Below are positions 2,846 to 7,810 of a stretch of DNA of 26,133 bases, piece by piece; position 1 is the first letter of the stretch; every line of letters starts with the position of its first letter. The notes under the pieces are model-generated. The model saw nothing but the letters and a program-made list of their open reading frames with translations, was not told the DNA's origin and made no database searches. The DNA lies in the IMG/VR virus record IMGVR_UViG_3300005589_000093, positions 1 to 26,133 of that record; one strand, given 5' to 3'. A program made the translations under genes and the position numbers. This DNA comes from a virus.

Positions 2846-4891
2846 TTATTTCTTAAATAAGTTACTTATCTCAATTTCTTGTAATTGTTTCTCCGTAAGA
2901 TTTGTTGGGATCATCTTTTTTGTCTCCATACTTGGGAAGTATGTGTACTCCCGGATTCCGCTATTCATCACACGTTGCTTCTCGAGCTTCAAAGATGTCT
3001 TCAATATTCCTGCAATGATCGTCTGGTCCAGTTTATTCATCTCTTTACCAAGCACCGCACCGTCACATACTCCTCCTACATAGGCATCACGTACCGTAAT
3101 TCCCTGATTACGTTCCTCATCAGTGAGCTTCAAGAAATACCATTTTGCGATAAGATCCTCTCGAGGGTCTGAAGTCTGCCGCGCTTGCTGCTGCCGTTTT
3201 GTTTCCTCCTCCGGGAATTCCCATGTCGTTTCCTGTAGGGTAATCACACGATGATACGCCTCAGCAAATAGTTGGTCCCTATTCTCTGCAAGCCATTCCA
3301 CATCTGCAGTCCCTTTACACGCAACCGGCAACCACCGCCTATTTCCTGTTTCATCCTTCAAGTACTCATCCTGATTTGTGGTCATTGCAAATACACACTG
3401 CCGGGGGAACTCCTTTACCGTTCGATCATACGGCATACGATATTTATCATTCGTCATCGTGATCACCGCCTTGAGCCGTTTACTTTCTGAGCGTGACAAT
3501 GTTTCTCCTTCTGAGAATTCCACAATCGCATTTCCAGATAGCAGCATGAAGAAATCCTTATTATCCGGTGCAAACACCGTCTCCACGTGCCAAGGTCCTC
3601 CAAGCACCGCCAGTGACGTAGATTTCTTGGTCCCCTGCTCCCCTTCAAATACAATTACATAGTCAAATTTACATCCAGGCTGTATCAGTCGCTTCACAAG
3701 TCCCTTCATCCAGTTGCTACCTACCTTCTGATGATATTCATTGTCCTCTACGTGGTACACCTTTGAAAGCCACTGATCCAGTCTCGGTTTCTTGTCCCAT
3801 ACAATCGACTTTATATATTCTGCTGGAGGTGACACCGCCTTTTCGTGCGCAAGGCGCAACACTGCATCCTCTACAATTGAATATCCCACACGCCTCAGAA
3901 ATTTATAGGTACGCTGCAAGTACATCCGCAGTAAATTAATATCCTCTCGCTGGAATGAGGTGAAATCCTCCCGGCCATACTTGCTCTCTACAAGTCCAGT
4001 GAAGGTATTGAACCGAAATGCATCTTTTGTAGTTACATCGTATCCAATCACTCGATATACATTCTCCTCATTTACAATCCTGTTTCCTTTTGCATCGATT
4101 AATAAATCAAGATCCTTCTCAGGAATATTTTTTGCATTCTCGCGCTTTGCAATTGACTGAAAAATAGTTTCCACCTCCTTCTTTGGTAGTGGATCTTTAA
4201 ATTGCTGATTCGCACCAAGGGCCATGGTGAGGCTGATTGCATCGTCATTGCTGATCTGCAAAATCTTTCCAACCACCTTAGTGAGTACTACATTTCTACC
4301 ATCACCATCGGCCATGGTGTCCATGTTCTTTATTACTTCATCTATAGAGGCAGAAGGCTTCGTGCTCTTCTTCTTTTCAAAAAGCTCAACAGGGAAGGGG
4401 GCAACGGGTAATTGTTTTACTACCTTGTATGCTCCAGCAATTCGCTTTTTGTTTTTTTGATAGTCACAAAATGAAGGAGGTGCCACCACGTAGCCACCAT
4501 CGTTTCGAATATCTACATGGGGAAATTGTGGGTATTGATTTGCTGATTGTCCTATTGCGTCAGTGTATTGATAGTAGAGATGGTACCCTCCGGTTGGTGT
4601 TTCAATCGTCAGTGTTTCAGGGAAGGCTTCAAGTGATGTTACTGCGTCACCACCTGTGTCTATATCAACTACAGTGATGCCTGAAATTTTACCGGTACAA
4701 ATTCCGATGTTGGGTACATTACTCTTTTTAAGAAACCATTTCTCGATCTCTTCGTCACTTGGCCTTCGCTCTCGCTGGTATACGATGTTCTCTTTCAGTA
4801 ATGGTGTTTTATTTCTCCGGAGTGGGATCACTGAATATCCTCTTGCAAGGTATTCGAATGCCTTCTGGTACATCTCATTGGTTGTATTCAT
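2846..4891 (-). CDS. PrimPol-VirE bifunctional primase-polymerase / helicase
   Basis: This is the probable replication initiator. The N-terminal domain (residues about 10-170) is a bifunctional DNA primase/polymerase with VVDIDTGGD (catalytic DxD), TPTGGYHLYY (sxH) and VDIRNDGGYVVAPPS (hD). The C-terminal half is a VirE-type superfamily 3-like ATPase: VIVFEGEQGTKKST is Walker A (about residues 412-425), DFFMLLSGNAIVEFSEGE supplies Walker B, and AMTTNQDEYLKDETGNRRW is the sensor/arginine region. I use the ATG at 4891; a TTG two codons upstream is possible. The 681-residue length fits the family. The gene lies beside the iteron region, as replication initiators often do, and its leader carries interlocking repeats (4902-4979). 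The Walker A has KK where GKS/T is usual in many ATPases. Confidence 0.88.
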   Translation of the reverse strand: MNTTNEMYQKAFEYLARGYSVIPLRRNKTPLLKENIVYQRERRPSDEEIEKWFLKKSNVPNIGICTGKISGITVVDIDTGGDAVTSLEAFPETLTIETPTGGYHLYYQYTDAIGQSANQYPQFPHVDIRNDGGYVVAPPSFCDYQKNKKRIAGAYKVVKQLPVAPFPVELFEKKKSTKPSASIDEVIKNMDTMADGDGRNVVLTKVVGKILQISNDDAISLTMALGANQQFKDPLPKKEVETIFQSIAKRENAKNIPEKDLDLLIDAKGNRIVNEENVYRVIGYDVTTKDAFRFNTFTGLVESKYGREDFTSFQREDINLLRMYLQRTYKFLRRVGYSIVEDAVLRLAHEKAVSPPAEYIKSIVWDKKPRLDQWLSKVYHVEDNEYHQKVGSNWMKGLVKRLIQPGCKFDYVIVFEGEQGTKKSTSLAVLGGPWHVETVFAPDNKDFFMLLSGNAIVEFSEGETLSRSESKRLKAVITMTNDKYRMPYDRTVKEFPRQCVFAMTTNQDEYLKDETGNRRWLPVACKGTADVEWLAENRDQLFAEAYHRVITLQETTWEFPEEETKRQQQARQTSDPREDLIAKWYFLKLTDEERNQGITVRDAYVGGVCDGAVLGKEMNKLDQTIIAGILKTSLKLEKQRVMNSGIREYTYFPSMETKKMIPTNLTEKQLQEIEISNLFKK

Positions 4892-4901
4892 ATGCAAAAA
4901 G

Positions 4902-4979
4902 GGCTACTCGCTGCACAAAGACCTGGGATCTTTTTGCGAGTAGCCTTGTCTATATACGAATAAATTGTGTCTTTGTGCA
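4902..4979 (-). promoter_or_regulatory. Candidate transcription attenuator / pseudoknot leader of the primase-helicase gene
   Basis: In minus-strand order the leader holds A = TGCACAAAGAC (4979-4969), B = GGCTACTCGC (4945-4936), A' = GTCTTTGTGCA (4922-4912) and B' = GCGAGTAGCC (4911-4902), then CTTTTT and the start codon. A:A' is a perfect 11-bp pair and B:B' a perfect 10-bp pair. B:B' plus the U-run is terminator-like. A' lies in the loop of B:B', so A:A' either competes with it or forms an H-type pseudoknot. The function is inferred from this geometry. Confidence 0.6.
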
Positions 4980-4999
4980 TGTGATGCATCATAGCACAC

Positions 5000-5012
5000 A
5001 ACGTGCATAATA
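5000..5012 (-). promoter_or_regulatory. Candidate promoter of the primase-helicase operon (TAnnAT-GYACGTT motif)
   Basis: The minus strand reads TATTATGCACGTT. TATTAT can serve as a -10, with the start near 5000, which would place the whole attenuator in a leader of about 110 bases. The spacing puts the DnaA box at 5035-5027 over the -35 region. The same 13-base pattern occurs at 1902-1914, 6048-6036, 25163-25175 and 25520-25532. Confidence 0.45.
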
Positions 5013-5026
5013 ATACAGTGGGGAAC

Positions 5027-5035
5027 TGTGGATAA
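5027..5035 (-). promoter_or_regulatory. DnaA box at the edge of the iteron array
   Basis: TGTGGATAA on the plus strand is the exact reverse complement of TTATCCACA. It abuts the first TGTGACTTTT iteron at 5036. Confidence 0.55.
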
Positions 5036-5132
5036 TGTGACTTTTGTGACTTTTTGATCAGTTTTATGTGACTTTTAGTGTTTTTTGTGACTTCTCATGT
5101 GACTTTTTTATGTGACTTTTCATGTGACTTTT
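5036..5132 (+). repeat. TGTGACTTTT iteron array
   Basis: Direct copies of TGTGACTTTT start at 5036, 5045, 5067, 5086 (ends TTCT), 5098, 5111 and 5123. Spacing is irregular, 9-22 bases. Further copies lie at 5257 and 5269, and an inverted copy AAAAAGTCACA at 5242-5252. They occur nowhere in the flanking genes in such a cluster. They are likely binding sites for a replication initiator. Confidence 0.8.
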
Positions 5133-5153
5133 AACGTACTTGATGTGAAATTT

Positions 5154-5213
5154 GCCTAACCTATTGCCTAACCTAAATGGCTCAACAGAGCCAATTGCCT
5201 AACCTGCCTAACC
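5154..5213 (+). repeat. GCCTAACC repeat cluster with small hairpin
   Basis: GCCTAACC, usually preceded by TT, occurs at 5154, 5166, 5197 and 5206. A hairpin GGCTC-AACA-GAGCC sits in the middle at 5179-5192. Outlying copies are at 5301-5308 (inverted, GGTTAGGC) and 5355-5362. This is a second repeat class, different from the TGTGACTTTT iterons, and suggests a second binding protein. Confidence 0.75.
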
Positions 5214-5241
5214 TTTTCCCTATATTTATTATATTTATGTT

Positions 5242-5277
5242 AAAAAGTCACATTTATGTGACTTTATATGTGACTTT
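5242..5277. repeat. Inverted and direct iteron copies in the AT-rich segment
   Basis: AAAGTCACA (5244-5252), a 4-base spacer and TGTGACTTT (5257-5265) form a perfect 9-bp inverted repeat. Another direct copy follows at 5269-5277. They lie inside the most AT-rich part of the non-coding region. Confidence 0.7.
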
Positions 5278-5371
5278 CTATCTATACTTATATACTAATA
5301 GGTTAGGCAAAAGTGGTAATAGTGAAAATAGGGCTAAGTGAAGCGGTCATAGCTGCCTAACCCCCCCCCTC

Positions 5372-5407
5372 AAGGGGTTGGGCAATTGCCTAAGGGGTTG
5401 GGCAATT
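5372..5407 (+). repeat. 16-bp tandem direct repeat, period 20
   Basis: AAGGGGTTGGGCAATT occurs at 5372-5387 and 5392-5407. The GGTTGGGC core is a one-base variant of inverted GCCTAACC, and GGCAATTGCC at 5381-5390 is a perfect palindrome. A run of nine C at 5361-5369 precedes it and can pair with the GGGG runs. Confidence 0.7.
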
Positions 5408-5434
5408 AAAAAATCCGCATAATGCGGACTTTTT
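5408..5434. terminator. Bidirectional intrinsic terminator
   Basis: TCCGCA (5414-5419) and TGCGGA (5423-5428) pair around a TAA loop. The stem is flanked by six A on the left and CTTTTT on the right, so each strand has a T-run. It lies 17 bases after the stop of the minus-strand gene at 5451 and would insulate the iteron region from it. Confidence 0.7.
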
Positions 5435-5450
5435 ATGGTATGTGTCAAGG

Positions 5451-6035
5451 TTATCGGAAATTGATAGGAACCTCGATCTCCTCTATCTCACAACCTGGTA
5501 CATTCTTTCCTGCCTTGAGATCCGCGAGTGCTTTTCTCTCATCTAGGATCCAATATGCTTTAGGTATTTTCTTTTCGTCTACCACCTTTAGTTTTTTATC
5601 GGTGCGGAATGAAATCTTACCAGCATTAGTTTCTACTTTTGATGGCGCAGTTTCGATTGCTTCCATCTTCTTTACTGCTGTTTCCATCTTCAGCTTTCCT
5701 TTCCCTTCTCCGATGCGATTGGCAATCTTGTCCGCCTCTTCCTTTCTCCGTTTTGCTTCTGCTGTTTGGAAGAGAGACATCTTTGATCGAACAATCTTTA
5801 TTGCGTCTTCATACAGAGATTCAATTGGTTTCCAGCGTGCGCGTTCTGCCTTGAGTGCTTCGTTCAGAGGTTTAGTTACTTTCTCTTTCTCTTTAGTAAC
5901 TTTGTCTTTAAACGTATTCATGGTTGAAAGCAGTTCTGTTGCTTTCTCCATGTCTTTGGCTTCTGTTATTGATAATTCTTCTGCTGCTACTGCTACCGGT
6001 GAAATTTCTTTCTCGTATATTTTTATATCTGCCAT
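5451..6035 (-). CDS. Coiled-coil conserved phage early protein
   Basis: I choose the ATG at 6035 (MADIKIYEKEIS, 194 residues). The open frame extends further upstream, but that would run through the divergent promoter region. Residues about 30-120 are a long charged helix or coiled coil (KDKVTKEKEKVTKPLNEALK, then ALKAERARWKPIE). The C-terminal third is a small beta domain that ends EVPINFR. I remember close relatives in other phages, near recombination genes, but know no function. The start codon lies 7 bases after TACCAT, one of the recurring TAnnAT-GYACGTT motifs, which fits a leaderless mRNA. It is followed by the terminator at 5408-5434. Confidence 0.7.
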   Translation of the reverse strand: MADIKIYEKEISPVAVAAEELSITEAKDMEKATELLSTMNTFKDKVTKEKEKVTKPLNEALKAERARWKPIESLYEDAIKIVRSKMSLFQTAEAKRRKEEADKIANRIGEGKGKLKMETAVKKMEAIETAPSKVETNAGKISFRTDKKLKVVDEKKIPKAYWILDERKALADLKAGKNVPGCEIEEIEVPINFR

Positions 6036-6048
6036 AACGTACATGGTA
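6036..6048 (-). promoter_or_regulatory. Leaderless promoter of the coiled-coil gene
   Basis: The minus strand reads TACCATGTACGTT directly followed by the ATG at 6035. TACCAT is a -10 candidate 7 bases from the start codon. The same TACCATGTACGT precedes the gene at 25178. A DnaA-box-like repeat overlaps the -35 position (6065-6073). Confidence 0.5.
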
Positions 6049-6064
6049 GCATACGTGCAAGGTT

Positions 6065-6087
6065 CTATCCACATGCTAGGTGGATAA
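6065..6087. promoter_or_regulatory. Inverted pair of DnaA-box-like sites between divergent promoters
   Basis: TATCCAC (6066-6072), a 7-base spacer and GTGGATA (6080-6086) form a perfect inverted repeat. Extended, the arms are CTATCCACA and GGTGGATAA, each one base from the DnaA consensus. ACCTTGCACGT on the minus strand (6063-6053) is shared exactly with the promoter region at 1928-1918. The site lies between two divergent genes and could control both. Confidence 0.5.
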
Positions 6088-6100
6088 CGTGCTAGAACTG

Positions 6101-6109
6101 TGGTATACA
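6101..6109 (+). promoter_or_regulatory. Extended -10 promoter before the chaperonin operon
   Basis: TG-G-TATACA (6101-6109) matches the extended -10 pattern and is followed 8 bases later by the ATG at 6118. Initiation would therefore be at or just before the start codon. Confidence 0.45.
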
Positions 6110-6117
6110 TGGTGTAT

Positions 6118-6288
6118 ATGAAAAAAAATACGCGGTCTGCCAACCTGAAAAAGTATTGGCAGTCTGTGCCGGAAGAGGATAGAAAAGCCCGGGCTTCTAA
6201 TGCAGCGAAAAAAAGATGGGAAGGAGTGAGTGTTGAGGAGAAGAGGGAAATTGCTTTAAAAATGGTAGCAGCTAGAAATAAAAAATAA
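6118..6288 (+). CDS. Small basic protein co-transcribed with the chaperonin
   Basis: From the ATG at 6118 the product has 56 residues and begins MKKNTRSANLKKYWQSV. Upstream GTG (6100) and ATG (6109) starts in frame overlap the -10 box and are less likely. It is rich in Lys/Arg, with two related helical units containing KYWQSVPEEDRKA and KRWEGVSVEEKRE. This RW..vs.EEk pattern is common in small plasmid and phage proteins and in short DNA-binding repeats, so nucleic acid binding is a guess. The TAA is one base from the chaperonin ATG. Confidence 0.6.
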   Translation: MKKNTRSANLKKYWQSVPEEDRKARASNAAKKRWEGVSVEEKREIALKMVAARNKK

Positions 6289-6289
6289 T

Positions 6290-7810
6290 ATGACACCAGC
6301 ACGTACAGTAAAAATTGGAGTTGATGCTCGCGATAGTATTATTAAAGGAGCAGATACCCTTGCAGATGCAGTAAAGCTAACACTAGGACCGCATGGTCTT
6401 AATGGTATTTATGTGAAAGGAGGTACTAAGATCACCAATGATGGTGTGTCTATTGCTAAAGAGATTGCGCTTGAGGATGAGATCGAGCAATTGGGAGTTG
6501 TTGCTTTGCGTGAGGCTTCAGAGAAAACAAACGATGAGGCTGGTGATGGTACTACAACTGCTATTACGCTTGCTCAGGCTATCTTGCGGTCACTCAAGCC
6601 ATATCTATTGAAGAAAGGACAGTATGACTCTCGTAAATCTCTAGCAGAACTAAGAAAACTGGTGAAGAAGGAGACTGAAGATATTATAAAAATCTTGGTA
6701 GATTCTGCCGTTCCTATTGAAACAGAGCAGCAGCTTATTGATGCCGCTCGAGTTTCTGTTGAGGATGAGGTCCTTGCTGAGATGATTGGTAAGGCTCAAT
6801 TTAAAGTTGGAAAAAATGGAGTGGTGATTGCTGAAGAGCATGCAAAACCTGTTGATATTGTTGAGCATGTGAAAGGTATACGCATGGACAATGGATTTGG
6901 TACGTCACTGATCATCAATGATCAGGAGAAGCAACGATTGGTTGAGAGTGACATTCCTGTGATTCTTACAAATCATGATCTTAATTCTCTAAAAGATCTT
7001 GAGCAGATTATCTCTCAGATCCGTAAGAGTGGAGGAACAAAACTTGCTATTGTCGCTCGTAGTTTCTCAAATGAGACTATTCAGTTATGTATGAAAAACC
7101 ATGAGGTTGGATATATGATCTATCCAATCAATGCTCCGTATGTTGATCAAACGCAAGTGATGAAAGACATGGCAGCGGTACTTGGTGGATCATTTATCAA
7201 TAAGGAGGAGAAAGATCTGGACTCTGTTCAGATGAGTGATCTTGGATTTGCGACTCGCATTGTTGCTGAGAGATTCAGTGCAATATTCACCGGAAAGGAT
7301 GATGTCGATGTATCTGCACGTGTTGCAGAACTTGAGAAAATGCTTGAAGGAAGTCCATCAGCTTTTGAAAGGACAATGATCGAATCACGACTTGCACAGC
7401 TGCAAAATGGTTTTGCAATTGTGAAGGTTGGATCTACTTCAGATCAGGAGCGTAAGTATAAGAAAGACAAGGTTGATGATGCGGTAAATGCTGTACGCGC
7501 AGCGTATCAAGAAGGAGTGGTACGAGGTGGAGGATATGCGCTGAAGAGTATTGGTCTTGAAATGCCTGAGGATTCTATTTTGCGTGAAGCAATCCAGGCT
7601 CCGTACAATCAGATCCAGGACAATGCTGGAGAAGAGTTTGAAATTCCTGAGTGGGTATATGATCCGGTAAAGGTGGTGCGTATTGCACTTGAGAAAGCAT
7701 CGAGTGTTGCGATGACACTTGCAACAACTGGTGTTGCTATTGCGCAGCCGCGACCTAAGGCTCGATATGTGCAGGAGGTAGACAAACAGGATGATGGGGA
7801 AAACTTATAA
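6290..7810 (+). CDS. groEL: GroEL-type (group I) chaperonin, phage-encoded
   Basis: This ATP-dependent protein-folding ring subunit aligns along its whole length with bacterial GroEL. Visible landmarks are TLGPHGLN (31-38), ITNDGVSIA with catalytic D51, the nucleotide loop AGDGTTT (84-90), and KVDDAVNAVRAAYQEGVVRGGG (394-415) with the second catalytic Asp. It has 506 residues against about 548 in E. coli: the equatorial segment near 420-455 is shorter and the Gly-Gly-Met tail is replaced by a charged end. In the apical domain the substrate/GroES-binding helices are changed; for example, by my hand alignment a Lys (K269) replaces E. coli V264. No groES is in the window. It follows the small basic gene by one base and precedes the terminase genes, which suggests a role in folding virion proteins. 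Confidence 0.92.
   Translation: MTPARTVKIGVDARDSIIKGADTLADAVKLTLGPHGLNGIYVKGGTKITNDGVSIAKEIALEDEIEQLGVVALREASEKTNDEAGDGTTTAITLAQAILRSLKPYLLKKGQYDSRKSLAELRKLVKKETEDIIKILVDSAVPIETEQQLIDAARVSVEDEVLAEMIGKAQFKVGKNGVVIAEEHAKPVDIVEHVKGIRMDNGFGTSLIINDQEKQRLVESDIPVILTNHDLNSLKDLEQIISQIRKSGGTKLAIVARSFSNETIQLCMKNHEVGYMIYPINAPYVDQTQVMKDMAAVLGGSFINKEEKDLDSVQMSDLGFATRIVAERFSAIFTGKDDVDVSARVAELEKMLEGSPSAFERTMIESRLAQLQNGFAIVKVGSTSDQERKYKKDKVDDAVNAVRAAYQEGVVRGGGYALKSIGLEMPEDSILREAIQAPYNQIQDNAGEEFEIPEWVYDPVKVVRIALEKASSVAMTLATTGVAIAQPRPKARYVQEVDKQDDGENL

Follow-up and report, generated by a model that had tools for sequence, protein, structure and literature searches.

Does the gap of repeats that lies beside a primase-helicase gene in a tailed phage constitute the replication origin of this phage and, if so, which proteins read its repeats? 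The locus belongs to a viral contig of IMG/VR, 26,133 bases long and analysed over its full length (the window), which is classed as linear and is possibly a fragment. Judged from its sequence, the gap is very probably a phage replication origin.

Architecture of the gene-free region

The open reading frames of the window leave positions 4898–5450 free of genes, in agreement with a sequence-only reading which had placed a 550-base region without genes beside a PrimPol-VirE gene. Two points are corrected: the flanking genes are co-directional on the minus strand, not divergent, and at the 3′ limit stands an intrinsic-terminator-like hairpin (stem 5414–5428) for the Gp157-like gene. The features are arranged as follows:

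2846–4897, minus strand: PrimPol-VirE/VapE initiator gene, likely start ATG at 4891
5027–5035, minus strand: perfect DnaA box, TGTGGATAA / TTATCCACA, abutting the first A repeat and in 9-bp register with two A repeats
5036–5132, plus strand: A array on the side nearer the gene, seven TGTGACTTTT copies with a common orientation; the relative L006 has six at this position
5152–5213, plus strand: left B half of the putative origin, TTGCCTAACC at 5152, 5164, 5195 and 5204 (steps of 12, 31 and 9)
5178–5193: palindrome TGGCTC-AACA-GAGCCA in the B spacer, present in the window, L006, L019, L022, L023 and L024
5214–5300: AT-rich core between the facing B halves, GC 0.195 versus 0.427 for the window, containing three A repeats
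5301–5405: right B half of the putative origin, sites at 5301 (minus), 5353 (plus), 5376 (minus), 5386 (plus, 2 mismatches) and 5396 (minus)
5407–5435: hairpin resembling a bidirectional intrinsic terminator, bounding the putative origin
5451–6302, minus strand: Gp157-like gene, which also flanks the origin region in L006

Two repeat families occupy the region. Family A is represented by ten exact copies of TGTGACTT within 4898–5450, nine on the plus strand (5036, 5045, 5067, 5086, 5098, 5111, 5123, 5257 and 5269) and one on the minus strand (5245), matching the earlier count of about ten mostly direct repeats; the last two plus-strand copies and the inverted one lie inside the core. The 10-mer TGTGACTTTT at ≤1 mismatch is found 10 times in the region, against two occurrences elsewhere in the 26 kb, and a triple-repeat pattern of A occurs 4 times in the region versus 0 in 100 shuffles. 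Family B comprises nine TTGCCTAACC sites at ≤2 mismatches within 4898–5450, including six exact GCCTAACC cores, where seven or more in both orientations had been claimed; both orientations are indeed present, the reverse complement being GGTTAGGCAA. At ≤1 mismatch, eight B sites fall into the region and none elsewhere in the 26 kb. The nine recognisable sites, with their irregular right half, do not form a clean 6+6 layout. The perfect DnaA box and the AT-rich core, both claimed before, were recovered at the positions listed, and 87-nt stretches as GC-poor as the core are practically absent elsewhere in the window.

The nearest relative, the 14-kb contig L006 whose primase is 68% identical to that of the window, displays the same succession of elements: a DnaA box directly adjoining the A array, then B sites, the palindrome, the AT-rich core, a further set of B sites, the terminator and the Gp157-like gene. 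It carries 12 B sites, shares the core gap of 97 with the window, and has the same three A repeats in the core, one inverted and two direct, at 2379, 2392 and 2404. The palindrome of the window and its five relatives follows the scheme GGCTx-N4-xAGCC, in which the fifth (closing) pair varies compatibly (C-G, T-A, A-T), and may correspond to a hairpin in single strands or to a dimer site. The idea of a stem-loop in all spacers was rejected as weak (stems of at least 6 in 8.9% versus 2.0%), the signal coming mainly from the window clade.

The GC skew, proposed earlier as a check, does change sign near the region, but at about 5.75–6 kb, which is also the place where the gene orientation changes; because of this coincidence the skew is not independent evidence for an origin and was dropped as confounded with transcription and gene orientation. 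The PrimPol leader (4902–4979) contains two interleaved inverted repeats of 11 bp (4979–4969/4922–4912) and 10 bp (4945–4936/4911–4902; z −4.2), which are mutually exclusive or form a pseudoknot and are directly followed by CTTTTT and then ATG. They constitute a possible attenuator; the structure was not seen in L006. On the other side, the window encodes a GroEL-like chaperonin at 6290–7810 (PF00118, E 1.3e-27; PHROG chaperonin, E 2e-87) adjoining the terminase, and L006 shows a weak GroES-like match at 3819–4070.

A diversified iteron family and its candidate reader

A megablast comparison of 10 kb of the window with known phages yielded no match, an Rfam search likewise none, and scans of genome contigs with the primase and with the helicase-core alignment no relative. 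Relatives were obtained from IMG/VR via the helicase-core alignment, 80 + 80 loci giving 123 distinct proteins after removal of duplicates. Across dozens of these loci, the B-type repeats belong to an iteron family GGTNNGG[AC]A beside PrimPol/VirE genes whose spelling differs from phage to phage: GGTTAGGCAA in the window and L006, GGTATGGCAG in L013, GGTAGGCAA in L023, GGTATGGAAG in L082 and others, GGTTAGGAAG in L042 and others, GGTTGGGAAG in L051 and others, besides further GGT-headed words such as GGTGGACGG and GGTGTCCA. The earlier remark on the novelty of the repeat sequences has to be corrected for B, which is a member of a widespread and diversified family. GGTGAAC/CTGAACA repeats were also observed adjoining VirE genes in L168, L170, L175, L177, L182 and L183.

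The arrays share a geometry. In 44 of the 45 loci scanned, two halves face each other across a core gap of 73–120, and over these loci steps of 9 bp (179) and 35/36 bp (73) were counted. The halves usually consist of 5–6 repeats, the commonest pairings being 6+6 and 6+5. The inner repeats follow each other at 9-bp steps and are oriented away from the core, the outer ones lie about 35 bp more distant; roughly 35 bp separate the trios and about 90 bp form the core. Position, repeat type and spacing in the window agree with those of iteron arrays that adjoin PrimPol/VirE genes in over 40 further phages, which sustains the earlier interpretation as an iteron origin. Its proposed check, the presence of the repeats in relatives with the same primase, turned out positive for both families and the same layout in L006, and for the B type alone in distant relatives. 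No array was found beside the gene in L016, L017 and L020; that of L019 and L021 may be located in another part of the contig. Simple counts gave no clear GGT array beside the gene in Haddon, RcGingersnap, BU1-1 and TCUEAP1.

The assumption that the cores are always AT-rich was rejected on the basis of 44 loci (mean core GC 0.577 versus 0.570). In the same 44 loci the cores alternate between purine and pyrimidine in 0.69 of the steps versus 0.51; this alternation is strong in GC-rich phages and weak in the window, the cores of the window clade being mostly just AT-rich. In GC-rich members (L042, L051, L116, L118 and others) the cores are built of strongly alternating CG/CA runs and are not AT-rich.

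Instead of being an origin, the region might merely control the PrimPol operon, its B sites being autoregulatory. Its location upstream of the gene, together with the likely promoter region and the structured leader that it contains, would be compatible with such a role. The array is, however, usually 5′ of the gene only in the window's clade and directly 3′ of it in most relatives, as in the Marinobacter phage PS3, the Staphylococcus phages 2638A and 47, the Lactobacillus phage LfeSau, the Listeria phage LWP01, the Acutalibacter phage Fontainebleau and APSE-1, and therefore cannot be the promoter of the gene there. Two halves around a core are also unlike operators, and we regard a pure control function as very improbable.

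The putative initiator is composed of a Prim-Pol domain (PF09250), PriCT_1, a VapE-like SF3 helicase (PF05272, E 6.6e-67) and a C-terminal winged helix. The latter was recognised in an AF2 model of residues 300–683 (36 sequences, mean pLDDT 90.8), in which Tyr651 (683-aa numbering) lies on the second of the wing strands. The best fold match of the model is 7pds (PriRep1 with dsDNA), followed by the C-terminal region of NrS-1 and the SaPI5 primase-helicase.

At 46 loci where a GGTNNG array stands out clearly, iteron base 4 was compared with all 384 alignment columns. The column of Tyr651 reached a mutual information of 1.00 bit (corrected 0.89; next best column, corrected, 0.35); it had first been picked by eye on 37 sequences, and the later all-column scan was unbiased but included those 37. 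The residue–base pairs are Y-T (17 loci), F-A (16) and R-T (6), with seven others among the 46 (W-A 2, H-A 1, T-A 1, M-G 1, F-G 1, plus a row with a gap). Base 4 requires 12 changes on the tree, and F and Y alternate across it. Many of the 46 loci are related to one another. Restricting the comparison to well-supported branches leaves six independent pairs, of which a mean of 5.8 are concordant and 0 discordant; the sign test is only just significant (p 0.03), while the F/Y subset with its 4 pairs puts p under 0.05 out of reach. The wing of the window was aligned to the proteobacterial clade at about 30% identity; its placement relies on the alternation of aromatic residues in the strand and is less certain than the placement of the proteobacterial clade. 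As indirect support, the covariation between residue 651 and base 4 suggests that B is most likely bound by the adjacent PrimPol-VirE protein, probably via its C-terminal winged helix.

The A repeats and the DnaA box

Among the 123 loci the A repeats are confined to the window and L006, so they cannot serve as the site used by the conserved winged helix in general. More distant relatives keep B-type repeats without A; this separability supports two different binders, as had been guessed. We consider A a probable lineage-specific second layer whose binder, other than the winged helix, is most likely a DnaA-type or a phage regulatory protein. Second repeat families appear as if gained independently, since L018 contains four GGTACC-centred copies ca. 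100–300 bases upstream of PrimPol, in the interval separating the gene from the B array. A pattern scan of viral contigs with TGTGACTTT, the source of L006 and of unrelated arrays, produced matches besides L006 near terminases (L003, L009–L012), in a coding repeat (L008) and beside another PrimPol (L004/L007). Alongside the arrays near the terminase, L003 and L009 carry the gene of a small sigma-region-4/Clr5-like protein. In L004 (12777–12960) and L007 (1–450), dense GTGAC sites in both orientations adjoin the primase of a PrimPol-AAA_25 phage; a tie of GTGAC to this primase type failed, as the 47% relative L187 has GTGTTGACA repeats instead.

Three roles of A deserve consideration. The repeats might be divergent DnaA boxes, in which case the phage initiator on B and the host DnaA on A plus the perfect box would share one platform; this is compatible with the assignment of B to the winged helix. 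A TTATNCACA box is kept 38–206 bp upstream of PrimPol in constant orientation in 8 of 13 window-clade loci checked (chance about 2% per locus), and it abuts the A array in L006 as well. Read in the direction of the gene, A is AAAGTCACA and has the CACA half in common with TTATCCACA, and the box and two A repeats of the window form three contiguous 9-mers in one orientation, making a DnaA-type binder attractive. However, A matches only 5 of 9 DnaA consensus positions, with a G at a T position, and the relatives having the box are without A repeats; this role is put forward tentatively. Alternatively, A might provide operators for a phage regulator of the PrimPol operon which acts in the core too. 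Seven A copies in one orientation at a promoter position, 140–240 bp upstream of the PrimPol start, fit a regulator, and so would the TGTGACTTT arrays near terminase genes in the unrelated phages L003 and L009–L012, with a gene for a small HTH-like protein in L003 and L009, and the second repeat of L018 between origin and gene. Yet a Pfam and PHROGs analysis of the window's small ORFs exposed no convincing DNA-binding regulator, and three A copies reside inside the replication core; operators are likewise put forward tentatively.

A further role would be that of priming sites: PrimPol would begin primer synthesis at GTGA once the DNA is unwound, with the three copies in the core used for both strands. 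The NrS-1 PrimPol, which has the same domain plan, primes at 5′-GTGA-3′/GTGG and 5′-TTTGGTTA-3′, and the pRN1 primase at GTG (PMC8718748). A contains GTGA, the reverse complement of B contains GGTTA, and CAC/GTG is about 2.9-fold enriched in 44 cores; the cores generally alternate between purine and pyrimidine, though, so that CGC, ACA and ACG are enriched as well. Moreover, the pRN1 origin was replicated despite GTG mutations (PMC4234260), the relative of L004, the second PrimPol phage with a GTGAC array, is without such an array, and the 9–10 bases of A are longer than a primase site needs. Priming sites are thus an unlikely explanation of A.

Relation to known origins and proposed mechanism

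P4 is a known case of an iteron origin with a self-loading helicase; its iterons are GGTGAACAG-like. The likeness of the GGTGAAC/CTGAACA repeats beside VirE genes to the P4 iteron suggests that the P4 iterons belong to the GGT-headed family. The window resembles the P4 alpha/ori1 system in combining a primase-helicase initiator with iterons, but the primase domain of alpha differs from the AEP Prim-Pol (PF09250) of the window, and P4 requires a second distant element, crr; in a search for a crr-like element no further B cluster was identified in the 26-kb record, which may itself be a fragment. Iteron plasmids of the RepE/pi/RepA type unite repeats, a DnaA box and an AT-rich core in one origin. 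These three elements occur together in the window as well, but its initiator provides its own helicase and primase and is not a Rep_3 protein, the genes flanking the iterons being PrimPol-VirE and Gp157-like.

Self-loading-helicase iteron origins are already known from SaPIs and, putatively, SCCmec (PMC7581432). In SaPI Rep helicases the C-terminal domain recognises an iteron origin beside the gene, apparently with two hexamers, and in the case of Cch2 the isolated C-terminal domain is enough for binding to the putative origin (PMC7581432). The window corresponds to SaPI Rep/PriRep in its SF3/VapE-type helicase with a C-terminal DNA-binding domain, in the iterons placed in two sets around a core beside the initiator gene, and in 7pds as best fold match. 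It differs in belonging to a tailed phage, in the fusion of PrimPol to the helicase, in the origin 5′ of the gene, and in the GGTNNGG[AC]A iteron family, the extra A repeats and the DnaA box. SCCmec Cch2 is similarly a D5-type helicase whose C-terminal domain binds repeats, located 3′ of its gene (PMC7581432), but these are three AAGTG iterons only. NrS-1 shares PrimPol, a ring helicase and a C-terminal region matching the window model; for NrS-1 two copies of an 8-nt site are reported and an iteron array is not (PMC7102993), in contrast to the array of the window. ORF904 of pRN1 combines an AEP primase, an SF3 helicase and a C-terminal winged helix in one protein (PMC4234260), like the window initiator. 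Its origin, however, is a 100-nt stem-loop without iterons, and in the region 5′ of PrimPol no such stem-loop of about 100 nt was seen, only the 16-nt palindrome in the B spacer.

With high confidence we favour the view that the region is the phage replication origin, that its B iterons are bound by the winged helix of the adjacent PrimPol-VirE protein and that two SF3 hexamers would be loaded there. The facing two-half geometry suits the loading of two helicase hexamers, and the commonest site numbers, 6+6 and 6+5, fit this arrangement. From the observed repeats, geometry and covariation we infer origin function, hexamer loading and the roles of DnaA and of the A repeats in the following scenario. 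The initiator would bind the B iterons through its C-terminal winged helix, and the two B sets facing each other across the AT-rich core would nucleate two oppositely oriented SF3 helicase hexamers. These would open the core and then travel outwards in opposite directions, the fused PrimPol domain laying primers during the movement. Host DnaA at its box probably aids or times the opening, or controls the gene, and the A-binder would contribute further control.

PrimPol-VirE modules are common, with over 1,000 matching records in the phage collection, and in the open literature we found no general description of their origins; nor was a description of the two-half geometry or the residue–base rule found there, most subscription papers being outside the scope of the search. 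We propose, in what we regard as an evenly balanced judgement, that PrimPol-VirE phages use a fixed two-half plan of about 12 sites, a private iteron per phage and a base 4 set by one wing residue (Y to T, F to A), which together would amount to a readable code, and that the lineage of the window adds host-DnaA coupling or site-specific priming by means of second repeats and palindrome. If this is true, such an origin-recognition code would limit cross-talk between phages. The shared geometry and the residue–base rule would allow origins to be located from sequence and would account for the specificity of replication between phages and satellites, and origin selection and opening by a fused primase-helicase would become directly testable. 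The A repeats, finally, would show how a PrimPol-VirE origin can gain a second input.
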